The translations under genes and the position numbers were made by a program. The notes under the pieces were generated by a model. That model did no database searches. It had not been told where the DNA came from and was given only the letters and a program-made list of their open reading frames with translations. A stretch of 42,938 nt of DNA from Desulfovirgula sp. (lineage in GTDB: Bacteria > Bacillota > Desulfotomaculia > Desulfotomaculales > Desulfocucumaceae), in NCBI GenBank assembly GCA_020725625.1, contig DYET01000032.1:1-42938 (forward strand), given 5' to 3'. Positions 24,682 to 28,358 of this stretch are shown here, piece after piece (the stretch's first letter is position 1; each line of letters begins with the position of its first letter).

Positions 24682-25452
24682 ATGGCTGCTTTATTAAAGG
24701 CCGCCAATATCAGCGTGGTCAGACAGAAGAAGGAAATTTTGAGACTGGAGGAAATCAGCCTGCAAAGGGGGGAGATAATTTCGGTGCTGGGGCCCAACGG
24801 CGCCGGAAAGAGCACCCTGCTGCTGGTTCTCGCCCTGTTGGAACCTCCTTCCGCCGGCGAAATCTTCTTTAGGGGCCAAAAGGTAACCGCAAGAAACGCG
24901 CTTTCCTTCAGGCGGCGAATGGCCGTGGTTTTCCAGGAACCCCTTCTTTTGAATACCACGGTTTACAACAACGTGGCCCAGGGTCTGAAGTTCAGGGGTG
25001 TGTCCCGGCAGGAAACAAACCGGAGGGTGGATTACTGGCTTGAAAAAATGGGCATCTTCCACCTGGCCGGACGGACCAACAGGTTTTTGTCGGGCGGCGA
25101 GGCCCAGCGGGTGAATCTGGCCAGGGCCCTGGTGTTGCAGCCGGAGGTGCTTTTTCTGGATGAGCCTTTCAACGCCCTGGATTTTCCAACCAGGCTGGAT
25201 TTAATCAAGGAGATAAGCTGTATAGTCAAGGAATGCGGGATAACCACCTTTTTTGTCACCCACAACTATTCCGAAATCCCCTTTTTTGGCGGTGGCGTCC
25301 TGGCCCTGAACGGGGGCAGGGCAGTCTACCGGGGTTCCGCGGAAAACCTATTCGAAGGCGGCCAGGCGGATTTAATCGGCAGGATATGGGGGAAAAAGCC
25401 GGAAGCTGTGGAAATAAACACTAATTTTAAACAGAAGGGGGTATTATGGTGA
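24682..25452 (+). CDS. ABC transporter ATPase, tungstate/molybdate (TupC-like)
   Basis: 256-residue ATPase: Walker A GPNGAGKST (37-45), Q-loop region AVVFQEPLLL (81-90), signature LSGGEAQRVNLARAL (136-150), Walker B VLFLDEP (156-162) and switch His in VTHNYSE. The FQEPLLLNTTVYNNVAQGLK block and the SGGEAQRV signature are like TupC of tungstate transporters rather than ModC; this assignment is from memory of the family. The partner genes tupA and tupB are missing on both sides. The last seven bases overlap the LUD-domain gene, so the two are translationally coupled. GGAGG lies 11 bases upstream of the ATG. Confidence 0.82.
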   Translation: MAALLKAANISVVRQKKEILRLEEISLQRGEIISVLGPNGAGKSTLLLVLALLEPPSAGEIFFRGQKVTARNALSFRRRMAVVFQEPLLLNTTVYNNVAQGLKFRGVSRQETNRRVDYWLEKMGIFHLAGRTNRFLSGGEAQRVNLARALVLQPEVLFLDEPFNALDFPTRLDLIKEISCIVKECGITTFFVTHNYSEIPFFGGGVLALNGGRAVYRGSAENLFEGGQADLIGRIWGKKPEAVEINTNFKQKGVLW

Positions 25453-26090
25453 CCGATTTGAGGCCATTTTACGAGGAAAGGGCCAAAAGGGTGGTGGCTG
25501 CCCTGAATAAAAACCTTTTTGAGGGCCTTTACGCACCCACCGGGGAACAGGCAGTTGAGGAGATATTGAAGAGAGTGCCTGCAGGGGCCACGGTGGGAGT
25601 GGGAGGTTCTCTTACCTTAAGGCAGATCGGTGCCGTAGAAGCCCTTAAAAGGAAGGGCCACGTGGTGTATGACCACTGGCAGGAAGGCCTTGACCCGGCC
25701 GAGGTGGACAGGGTCCGCCGGAGCCAGTTGACCTCGGATGTTTTTATTTCCGGGTGCAATGCCGTCACCGCCGAGGGGCACCTGGTGAATACCGACGGTT
25801 CGGGAAACAGGGTGGCGGCCATGACCTTCGGTCCCAAAAAAGTAATCGTAGTGGCAGGCGTCAACAAAATCGTCAAGGACCAGGAGGCCGCCCTGGCCAG
25901 GATTAAGAATGAAGCTGCCCCGCTTAATTTTTACCGGCTCAATTTGCCCACTCCGTGCACCAAGATAACCCTCTGCACCGATTGCGCGCCCCCGGCGAGG
26001 TTCTGCCGGGTGACCGCCGTAACCGAGGCCAGGCCCGCCGGCATTCCTGAATTTACGGTGATTATCGTGGGAGAAAGCCTAGGGCTTTAA
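25446..26090 (+). CDS. LUD-domain protein (LutC/YkgG-like)
   Basis: 214 residues with the LUD (DUF162) fold: PAGATVGVGGSLTLRQIGAVEAL (a phosphate-binding-like loop), DVFISGCNAVTAEGHLVNTDGSGNRVAAM and KKVIVVAGVNKIV. The C-terminal part adds four cysteines (CTKITLCTDC...FC), frequent in stand-alone LUD proteins of anaerobes and possibly metal or cluster binding. Family relatives LutC and LutB take part in lactate oxidation, but lutA/lutB are not here, so the function is open. ATG overlaps the ABC gene's end. Confidence 0.88.
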   Translation: MVTDLRPFYEERAKRVVAALNKNLFEGLYAPTGEQAVEEILKRVPAGATVGVGGSLTLRQIGAVEALKRKGHVVYDHWQEGLDPAEVDRVRRSQLTSDVFISGCNAVTAEGHLVNTDGSGNRVAAMTFGPKKVIVVAGVNKIVKDQEAALARIKNEAAPLNFYRLNLPTPCTKITLCTDCAPPARFCRVTAVTEARPAGIPEFTVIIVGESLGL

Positions 26091-26219
26091 CCGACGGCGG
26101 AAGGGTCCGGGGAAGCTGCCCGGATCTGCCGTCTTAAAGTCCCGGGCGACACAGGCCAAGGTGCTTTGGAAGAGTGGTTGCCCATACCGCTAATGGCCAG
26201 CTCCGGCAACTATTTTTAG

Positions 26220-26251
26220 TAGAGGCCTTCTTCGTTAGAAGAAGGCCTCTA
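26220..26251. repeat. Perfect 14-bp inverted repeat
   Basis: TAGAGGCCTTCTTC and its complement around a GTTA loop; no T-run follows on either strand, so it is not a standard terminator. Confidence 0.8.
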
Positions 26252-26571
26252 TGTCATGAGCCCGTGATGACCTGCGCTACAGCCGCTACGCGTACCTGCG
26301 CAGCCCCTAACGACCTTTCGGCCGCTAAGAACCGTTACGACACCCGCAGTGACCTTCGCTTGACTGCCATGGATATCTTGGAAGCCTGCAATGATCTTCC
26401 GACCATTGCAGACCTCTAGGCCGACATCCGTGACAATCTTAGCTCGACCGATAAACATCCCTTACGACCGCATGGCAGTCGTTCCAGACTGCAATACAGC
26501 CTGCCGGAACATTCACCAGTCTTCCCGCCGACTGCTGCCGAGCCTCTTAGACCCGGCAGCAATCTTTGGCC

Positions 26572-26606
26572 GACCGGTACGGAGCCCTTGGGACCCCGTA
26601 CCGGTC
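26572..26606. repeat. Perfect 11-bp hairpin of the array
   Basis: GACCGGTACGG and CCGTACCGGTC flank a 13-base loop; strongest internal stem of the gene-free region. Confidence 0.75.
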
Positions 26607-26894
26607 TGGGCTCGGCCACCACGAACCCGTGCTAATATTATGCTCACTTTCCGCCGCGTTATTTATCTCTGTCGGATTATTTTTTTCAGTGATGTTTGCT
26701 GAGGTAGCAGGTGTTGCCGGAGGGACAGCCCGGCGGCCGGTCGCCCGGATCTGGTTCCGGCCGCAAGCTTCCCGCCGGTAGCCCTGGACTTTGACAATGT
26801 CATAAAGGGGTAGATTTTCTGAGAAAATTTTGCAATAATAAAAAAAATTGATATTGAATATTAGCTGCATTTTTCATCGAAGAAGGTTAATGCC

Positions 26895-28358
26895 ATGCCT
26901 GATAATATCAAAATAGATATTTCCAGGGATAAAATGACGGCCACGATAAAGGTCTTGGGTCCAGATCCGCCTGCCAGGGAGGAAATAATCGAAGCCCTGA
27001 AACAAAAAGGGGTTGTTCACGGTATCCTGGAGAATGTGGTGGATTACTGCTCTACAGTCGTACCGAACGAAGCTACGGTTGTCGCCAGGGGGGATTCTCC
27101 CGTTCCCGGTCGGAACGGATGGGTCGACCTGCTTTGGGAGAAGCAGGAAGATCCCGAAATCAGCCTCGACGAGGCAAAAACCGTAGACTACAGGGAAACC
27201 AGCAAGCTGGTTTCGGTCAACGAAGGAATCCAGCTGGCCCAGAAATACCCCCCGGTTAAGGGTGAACCGGGGAAAGGCGTGACCGGGGAAATAATTTTCC
27301 CCCCCGATCCCAAGGAGGCCAGAATTATGGCCGGCAGGGGTGTAAGGCTTGATTACGGGGAGGACAAGGCCTATTCAACCATCCAGGGCAGGCCGGTGGC
27401 CAAAAAGGCCGGCACCACCGTAATGATTACAGTTGAACCCTCCTATACCGTGGTCGGGGACGTCAACCTGAAAACGGGGAATATACGGTTCAAGGGGGAT
27501 GTCACCGTTACCGGAAACATTACCGAAACCATGACCCTGGAGGCGTCGGGCAACGTCCGGGTCAACGGGATAGTCACCGGTGCCAACGTTTTCTGCGGGG
27601 AGAGCCTGCTGGTGCAAAGAAATGTGATCAGCAGCAATATAACGGCGGGAATGGGGGCTGTGGAATGCGGAAAGATAAAATATCTCATCCAGGACCTGTA
27701 CTCGGAACTGAAAAGCCTAGTTGAATTGATGGATCAAATCAGGGACAAGCTGGCCAACATTGAAAGGCTGTCCTTTGCCCAGTTGGTCAACGGATTGATT
27801 GAGAACCGGTTCAAAAACATCCGCCAGTACGCCAAGCAGCTGCAGAACACTAAGACCTTCAACCTTCCCTTCGAGGTCTCCGACGCCCTGGATTCAATCA
27901 AGATCATTACCGGGATCCAGTTCACGCAGGAGGACTTCAAGGAATTGATGCATAACCTTGGCGAGGCCGTAAGGGTCATGAATTCGCAGGAGTCGGAAAA
28001 AGCCAGGGTTATTGTGAAGGCGGTCCACGGATCCAGCATCAAGTGTTCCGGGGAGGTCGTGGTTACCGGTAAGGGCTGCGTCAACACGACCATCTATGCC
28101 GGAGGAGACGTCAAGATTACCGGTCCGTTCAAGGGTGGAGAAATTTTCAGCGAGGGAAATGTCGAGATTGATGAACTGGGCAGCAACCTGGGAGCTCCGC
28201 CTCTGGTCAGGGTCAAATCCAAGAATTTCGTCAAGGTTAAACGGACCCTGCCCGGGAGTATAATCCAAATCGGATCGAACCGCGTAAACATCACCAGGGA
28301 ATTGACTGCAGCCAGGTTTAAGCTGAGCAATGACGGAGAGACAATAGAAATAATTTAG
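26895..28358 (+). CDS. FapA/DUF342-family protein
   Basis: 487-residue protein of the flagellar assembly protein A (DUF342) family. An N-terminal region (1-100) is followed by KGEPGKGVTGEII, the typical KxG...GxD/V-TG segment, then a right-handed beta-helix-like array of V-x-G-x-V repeats (GDVNLKTGNIRFKGDVTVTGNI, ASGNVRVNGIVTGANV), a coiled-coil insert (about 255-330) and more beta repeats to the end (GGDVKITGPFKGGEIFSEGNVEI). Family members are often near chemotaxis/flagellar genes in clostridia; none are here, so the role is unclear (polymer- or filament-like scaffold is a guess). ATG follows GAAGG. A terminator follows immediately. Confidence 0.9.
   Translation: MPDNIKIDISRDKMTATIKVLGPDPPAREEIIEALKQKGVVHGILENVVDYCSTVVPNEATVVARGDSPVPGRNGWVDLLWEKQEDPEISLDEAKTVDYRETSKLVSVNEGIQLAQKYPPVKGEPGKGVTGEIIFPPDPKEARIMAGRGVRLDYGEDKAYSTIQGRPVAKKAGTTVMITVEPSYTVVGDVNLKTGNIRFKGDVTVTGNITETMTLEASGNVRVNGIVTGANVFCGESLLVQRNVISSNITAGMGAVECGKIKYLIQDLYSELKSLVELMDQIRDKLANIERLSFAQLVNGLIENRFKNIRQYAKQLQNTKTFNLPFEVSDALDSIKIITGIQFTQEDFKELMHNLGEAVRVMNSQESEKARVIVKAVHGSSIKCSGEVVVTGKGCVNTTIYAGGDVKITGPFKGGEIFSEGNVEIDELGSNLGAPPLVRVKSKNFVKVKRTLPGSIIQIGSNRVNITRELTAARFKLSNDGETIEII

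Follow-up and report, generated by a model that had tools for sequence, protein, structure and literature searches.

A stretch of 42,938 nt of Desulfovirgula DNA, here called the window, contains between a LUD-domain gene (end 26090) and a FapA gene (start 26895) an interval in which we found no protein gene with support. What does this interval encode? The first-pass annotation had described 0.8 kb without a gene, which is borne out, carrying serial hairpins with perfect arms of up to 14 bp. It had offered two readings, a large structured RNA not described before or a decayed gene for a tandem-repeat protein. The hairpins are real: the arms of the perfect inverted repeat 26220-26233/26238-26251 are complementary at 14 of 14 positions, and further inverted-repeat arms lie at 26572-26587/26591-26606, 26381-26396/26401-26416 and 26530-26545/26549-26564. 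Folding of the minus strand from 26645 to 26215 gave -252.4 kcal/mol compared to -157.4 +/- 5.9 for 100 dinucleotide shuffles (z = -16.1), whereas the plus strand of the window copy reached z = -6.5 only. The parts of the locus are as follows.

25446..26090, plus strand: LUD-domain gene (PF02589, E = 1e-47), convergent with the RNA and outside it
26895..28358, plus strand: FapA-like gene (PF20250 and PF03961), divergent from the RNA and outside it
26660..26664, minus strand: -35-like element AAATA (family consensus GNATA), 14 nt from the -10-like element, from a two-block matrix
26636..26645, minus strand: -10-like element GAGCATAATA (family consensus GGNNANNMTA), present upstream of near and far copies and ending about 7 nt before P1
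about 26629, minus strand: putative transcript start
26629 to 26220, minus strand: whole RNA of about 410 nt, made up of a 374-nt folded core and an intrinsic terminator
26256..26629, minus strand: folded core, 374 nt, from a 44-sequence alignment and consensus structure, with the same helices in a 123-sequence alignment
26614..26628, minus strand: closing helix P1, 5' strand, 15 bp with 26258-26272
26258..26272, minus strand: closing helix P1, 3' strand, pairing with 26614-26628
26572..26606, minus strand: arm P2, a 15-bp hairpin with an apical GGU/GCU box, both-sided changes in 13 of 15 pairs
26530..26564, minus strand: arm P3, a 15-bp hairpin with an apical GGU/GCU box, both-sided changes in 11 of 15 pairs
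26446..26521, minus strand: arm P4, with P4a (26521-26506 with 26461-26446) and outer hairpin P4b (26501-26466)
26358..26443, minus strand: arm P5, with P5a (26443-26423 with 26377-26358) and outer hairpin P5b (26416-26381)
26281..26354, minus strand: arm P6, with P6a (26354-26339 with 26296-26281) and outer hairpin P6b (26334-26301)
26220..26251, minus strand: intrinsic-terminator-like hairpin of 14 bp at the 3' end of the transcript, replaced by a differently sequenced hairpin at the same place in relatives

The consensus structure was derived by folding an alignment of 44 full copies, and 6371 cells of the same alignment were then counted on the named structure. Over its 145 pairs, 98.2% of cells form standard pairs, compared to 32-42% for slid versions of the structure, a control that is somewhat flattering because the structure came from the same alignment, although this does not explain the excess of double changes. 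Changes on both sides were found in 103 of the 145 pairs, against 58.8 in shuffles and 29-49 in slid structures, and cells with double changes numbered 745 against 196 in shuffles; none of 500 shuffles reached any of these measures. Such pairs are spread over every helix, with 9/15 in P1 (where 99.8% of cells are paired), 13/16 in P4a, 11/15 in P4b, 14/19 in P5a, 11/16 in P5b, 11/15 in P6a and 10/15 in P6b. Adding distant copies from many families, to a total of 123 sequences, recovered P1 and all eight helices of the arms. This was the covariation check that the first-pass annotation had proposed, and with the lack of an Rfam 15 match it supports the undescribed large structured RNA. The interval almost certainly encodes a real structured RNA on the minus strand.

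The structure is built from helices of 15-16 bp that are free of insertions and deletions in 42-44 of the 44 copies. P1 closes the fold, P2 and P3 are single 15-bp hairpins, and P4, P5 and P6 each consist of two helices with an internal loop. A box of one G-C pair between two G-U pairs (GGU/GCU) occurs in P1, P2, P3, P4b, P5b and P6b and is kept in 38-41 of the 44 copies at each of these six places, with adjacent pairs covarying freely. Between P4a and P4b lies a 4x4 internal loop, GGCA/GUAA, and P6 has GUAA/NGCA; the two arms thus have one loop in common (GUAA opposite NGCA) in opposite orientation. P5b is capped by a GNRA tetraloop in most relatives, mostly GAGA, and P6b by GAAA in 42 of 44 copies. 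The hairpin loops of P2 and P3 vary, and conservation of unpaired bases is confined to short junctions and the 4x4 internal loops; the linkers ahead of P2, P3, P5 and P6 follow the pattern C-N-A-A or C-A-A-A. R1, a covariance model built on the RNA's 5' half (also used for the class and phylum surveys below), matches the 3' half as well in most copies; 80 loci gave 65 secondary matches, and the arms accordingly resemble repeated or duplicated modules. The sole strongly length-variable part of the RNA is an insertion in P5, which measures 6 nt in the window copy (26417-26422), 8 in one other and about 19-54 nt in nearly all copies.

Five of the six stems listed in the first-pass annotation are parts of this structure: 26220 is the terminator, 26386 is P5b, 26475 is P4b, 26533 is P3 and 26572 is P2. 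The one at 26346 is no local hairpin; it lies within the 5' strand of the longer-range helix P6a. Missing from that list were hairpin P6b, helix P1 and the inner helices of the two-helix arms (P4a, P5a and P6a). The recurring GACCTT boxes read AAGGUC on the RNA strand and correspond to bases of a linker together with the opening bases of the helix that follows, and the suggested period of about 40 nt is only approximate, the real unit being an arm of one or two 15-16-bp helices. That annotation also contained neither the minus-strand location of the RNA nor its own terminator and forespore-type promoter.

How widespread is this RNA? A DNA search with the interval returned two more copies in the same genome, one of them truncated where its contig ends, and hit 34 of 60 relatives; RNA copies in the genome of the window lie on three contigs. 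R1 detected the RNA in 84 of the 113 genomes surveyed within the class; of 398 genomes sampled from the phylum as a whole, 142 carry it. Thirteen genomes of the class belong to both sets, which together contain more than 200 RNA-bearing genomes, mostly of spore formers. Bacilli seem to be part of the phylum sample, since strong EcsB matches occur there. An exact pattern scan found carriers including Carboxydocella thermautotrophica, Thermosediminibacter litoriperuensis and Desulfoscipio geothermicus, all three confirmed as Bacillota, as well as Pelotomaculum propionicicum, Sporotomaculum syntrophicum and Desulfotruncus species. Counts of R1 matches exceed gene copies because secondary matches beside a primary one represent the 3' half of the same RNA. 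In several genomes, near-tandem RNA copies lie 0.5-2.6 kb apart (L130, 1539-1716 and 4143-4320; G072:C8, 40705-41384; G097:C134, 56235-58394).

Nearly every genome with the RNA also carries the sporulation gene spoIIR. In the phylum sample spoIIR is present in 137 of 142 RNA-bearing genomes versus 195 of 256 RNA-less genomes (Fisher p = 2e-8, kinship ignored); counted the other way, the RNA occurs in 137 of 332 spoIIR-bearing and 5 of 66 spoIIR-less genomes. The five RNA-bearing genomes without spoIIR are all draft assemblies, one just 61% complete. Within the class, the RNA is found in 81 of 104 genomes with spoIIR versus 3 of 9 without (p = 0.009, kinship ignored), and a sister genome from the window's own family (G004) is without spoIIR, small acid-soluble spore protein (SASP) genes and the RNA alike. 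Even a more sensitive search did not detect the RNA in six spoIIR-bearing genomes of family f11 (G029, G039, G047, G055, G079 and G081) or in the spore-forming genera g17 and g26 of family f14. As whole spore-forming lineages are without it, the RNA is not required for sporulation as such.

Two boxes upstream of the first helix are kept in nearly all lineages. When a two-block motif was fitted to 127 upstream regions, the blocks were GNATA and GGNNANNMTA at a gap of 14-15 nt, and 110 of the regions scored at least 14. The window promoter scores 18.7, compared to a family median of 18.5, and has a weak -35 (AAATA). The end of the -10 mostly lies 7-9 nt before P1, the spacing expected if the transcript starts at P1. 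Starting the fit from the sigmaA consensus gave a poorer result (13.8 versus 18.1 bits). The motif resembles the forespore sigmaF/sigmaG consensus of B. subtilis. Scanned over genes of known timing, the promoter matrix passes the 95% shuffle level for 70% of SASP, 21% of spoIIR and 5% of rpsB upstream regions. As an independent control we took the hinT-ecsA gap of Bacilli, the site in Bacillus of a proven sigmaF/sigmaG forespore RNA, Bvs196 (PMC9147052); there, 5 of 7 genomes give matrix scores of 17-23. Because sigmaF and sigmaG promoters are reported to overlap in C. difficile (PMC7438776), we leave the choice between the two unassigned. After the core, a terminator-like hairpin of varying sequence was called by an automated, strict T-run rule in 54 of 97 copies with a locatable 3' end, and most of the listed misses also have a strong hairpin at that place. 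From the boxes, their 14-15-nt spacing and their closeness to the start, all of the sigmaF/sigmaG type, we strongly infer expression in the forespore, which we predict from promoter and terminator together and judge to be very likely.

Several observations bear on how the RNA is placed in genomes. The largest neighbour family is common to 11 of 127 copies, the downstream gene is convergent in 86 of 119 and unrelated between lineages, and of 45 relatives no more than 2 keep any given reading frame open over the core. With varying neighbours and no frame kept, the RNA is therefore a stand-alone gene, and with no shared neighbour gene it most likely acts in trans. A riboswitch or cis-regulatory leader was rejected, as the RNA has no constant same-strand position upstream of one gene class. 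A FapA-like gene also lies near the RNA in related genomes. By sequence resemblance, some copies are convergent to a spoIVA-like gene and others lie beside a SpoVT-like gene (L003 1-267; L017; L025), which looks like lineage synteny, yet is suggestive. In the window, the RNA gene is bracketed by nested inverted repeats (26136-26150 with 26778-26792, 87% complementary; 26201-26210 with 26713-26722, 100% complementary), and the 11-mer GCCCGGATCTG is present on either side; these may be chance or insertion relics. The right flank does not recur elsewhere in the genome, and RNA copies were not found in IMG/VR (by pattern scan) or in phage or plasmid records.

We compared the RNA with known families. 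Rfam 15 at gathering thresholds gave no match over the RNA in the window, L002 or L003, and none over it in 18 distant loci, two of which have unrelated riboswitches elsewhere; at E <= 5, all matches in the window were far below gathering scores. Our search covered openly accessible papers other than bioRxiv and supplementary files and found no RNA of this description in these bacteria; it may have been mentioned before under a different name. Three large structured-RNA screens do not mention these genera in their main texts. The closest comparison is Bvs196/S357, a 294-nt Bacillus forespore RNA with a fixed hinT-ecsA location (PMC9147052). Like the RNA here, it is a stand-alone RNA of a spore former with a sigmaF/sigmaG promoter, a terminator and a stable structure; its locus differs in having AAATGAGGTGT...AAAG repeats downstream of the promoter and no shared structure in alignment. 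Membership in this family was rejected on two grounds. R1 with filters off gave at most 16 bits to a 40-nt piece of the homologs, which were taken by position from EcsB-anchored Bacilli loci rather than from the published sequence, and the window copy has LUD and FapA genes on its two sides, with neighbours that differ across lineages. In the Bacilli loci themselves (L289-L294, hinT-ecsA gap, strand opposite ecsA), several AAATGAGGTGTYTGTYAAAGAC-like repeats lie downstream of a predicted forespore promoter in what is presumed to be Bvs196/S357, and apart from these repeats little aligns between genera; the presumed RNA may have this repeat as its functional unit.

Another forespore transcript, CsfG, is a small RNA. 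In Bacillus subtilis it is under sigmaF/sigmaG control and forespore-restricted (PMC9147052), a control that the RNA here would share. Among large RNAs, OLE forms dimers (PMC12286853) and ribonucleoproteins (PMC9723947) and is likewise a large ornate RNA of anaerobic or extremophilic Bacillota; unlike it, OLE is about 600 nt long, and the RNA here has no such Rfam match, at gathering or at E up to 5. GOLLD and ROOL form RNA-only nanocages via A-minor contacts and kissing loops (PMC12286853). They are similarly large and multi-helix, whereas they are encoded by phages or prophages and exceed 600 nt, and our RNA was not found in phage collections and is without an Rfam match. The raiA motif RNA, or ModT, is a structured trans-acting Bacillota RNA affecting sporulation (PMC11706538); in contrast to the RNA here, which again lacks an Rfam match, it is abundant in growing cells, at rRNA-like levels. 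The RNA joins the large ornate RNAs and the forespore RNAs while lying outside every tested family of either.

What might such an RNA do? The decayed tandem-repeat protein gene has next to no chance of being correct: internal repeats are present and R1 matches both halves, and the reading is refuted by a stop-free frame in at most two of the 45 relatives and by compensatory changes in 103 pairs, which preserve base pairs and not codons. A mobile or selfish DNA repeat with hairpins would account for up to several copies per genome, the varied neighbours and the nested inverted repeats around the window copy, and we regard it as very improbable given the RNA's own promoter and terminator, low copy number and deep fold conservation, together with its absence from the IMG/VR pattern scan and from phage and plasmid records and the non-recurring right flank. 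We rate a catalytic RNA as equally improbable; its size, complexity, conserved junctions and tetraloops would fit, against which stand few conserved unpaired bases, no self-cleavage or splicing context and no match to a ribozyme family.

Two regulatory readings deserve more weight. The repeated boxes could titrate a forespore RNA-binding protein, making the RNA a protein-sequestering or enzyme-modulating molecule like 6S or CsrB, in keeping with a box repeated six times in equal helices, with the several gene copies that many genomes have and with a developmental promoter. Sponges such as CsrB present single-stranded loop motifs. Here the box sits inside helices and a closed multi-arm fold is conserved to the base pair, and we consider this reading rather unlikely. 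Somewhat less likely still is a forespore regulator that pairs with mRNAs, the role suggested for Bacillus Bvs196, with which the RNA shares its promoter class and stand-alone transcription and which binds spo0A and sspN-tlp mRNA in vitro (PMC9147052). Against it, no single-stranded seed is conserved, P2 and P3 have variable hairpin loops, P5b and P6b end in GNRA tetraloops, and strictly fixed helix length is unneeded for antisense action; with almost all conserved bases paired or in junctions, an antisense regulator is unlikely.

We favor, as the probable explanation overall, a stand-alone minus-strand non-coding RNA of about 410 nt that would be made in the forespore and act in trans as a structural scaffold. 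Its transcription would begin at P1 from a sigmaF/sigmaG-type promoter and end at its own terminator, so that the RNA would be made in the forespore together with small acid-soluble spore proteins. The closing helix P1 gathers the five arms P2-P6, with conserved linkers and with GNRA loops on P5 and P6. Equal docking boxes on the fixed-length arms would be recognized by a repeated protein or by further copies of the RNA. In this way the RNA may give rise to an assembly of the developing spore, made of ribonucleoprotein or of RNA. We suggest a scaffold from the anatomy, since selection keeps helix length, junctions and repeated helical boxes rather than a single-stranded seed, and judge the chances of this mode of action to be about even. 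A forespore-type promoter joined to a rigid, multi-armed, conserved fold points to what is probably a structural RNA of the spore. More tentatively, it could represent a new class of developmental architectural RNA whose repeated 15-bp modules and six identical G-U docking boxes form a particle of the spore core, alone or with protein, that aids dormancy or resistance.

Bacteria have few known large structured RNAs, and for most of these no function has been assigned. We found no other whose own promoter links it to the spore in so many families. As timing and compartment can be read from the sequence, the biology of this RNA is directly testable, and the strict lengths of its helices and the recurrence of the wobble boxes recommend it for structure determination. 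If abundant in spores, the RNA would be an unstudied component of the dormant cell.
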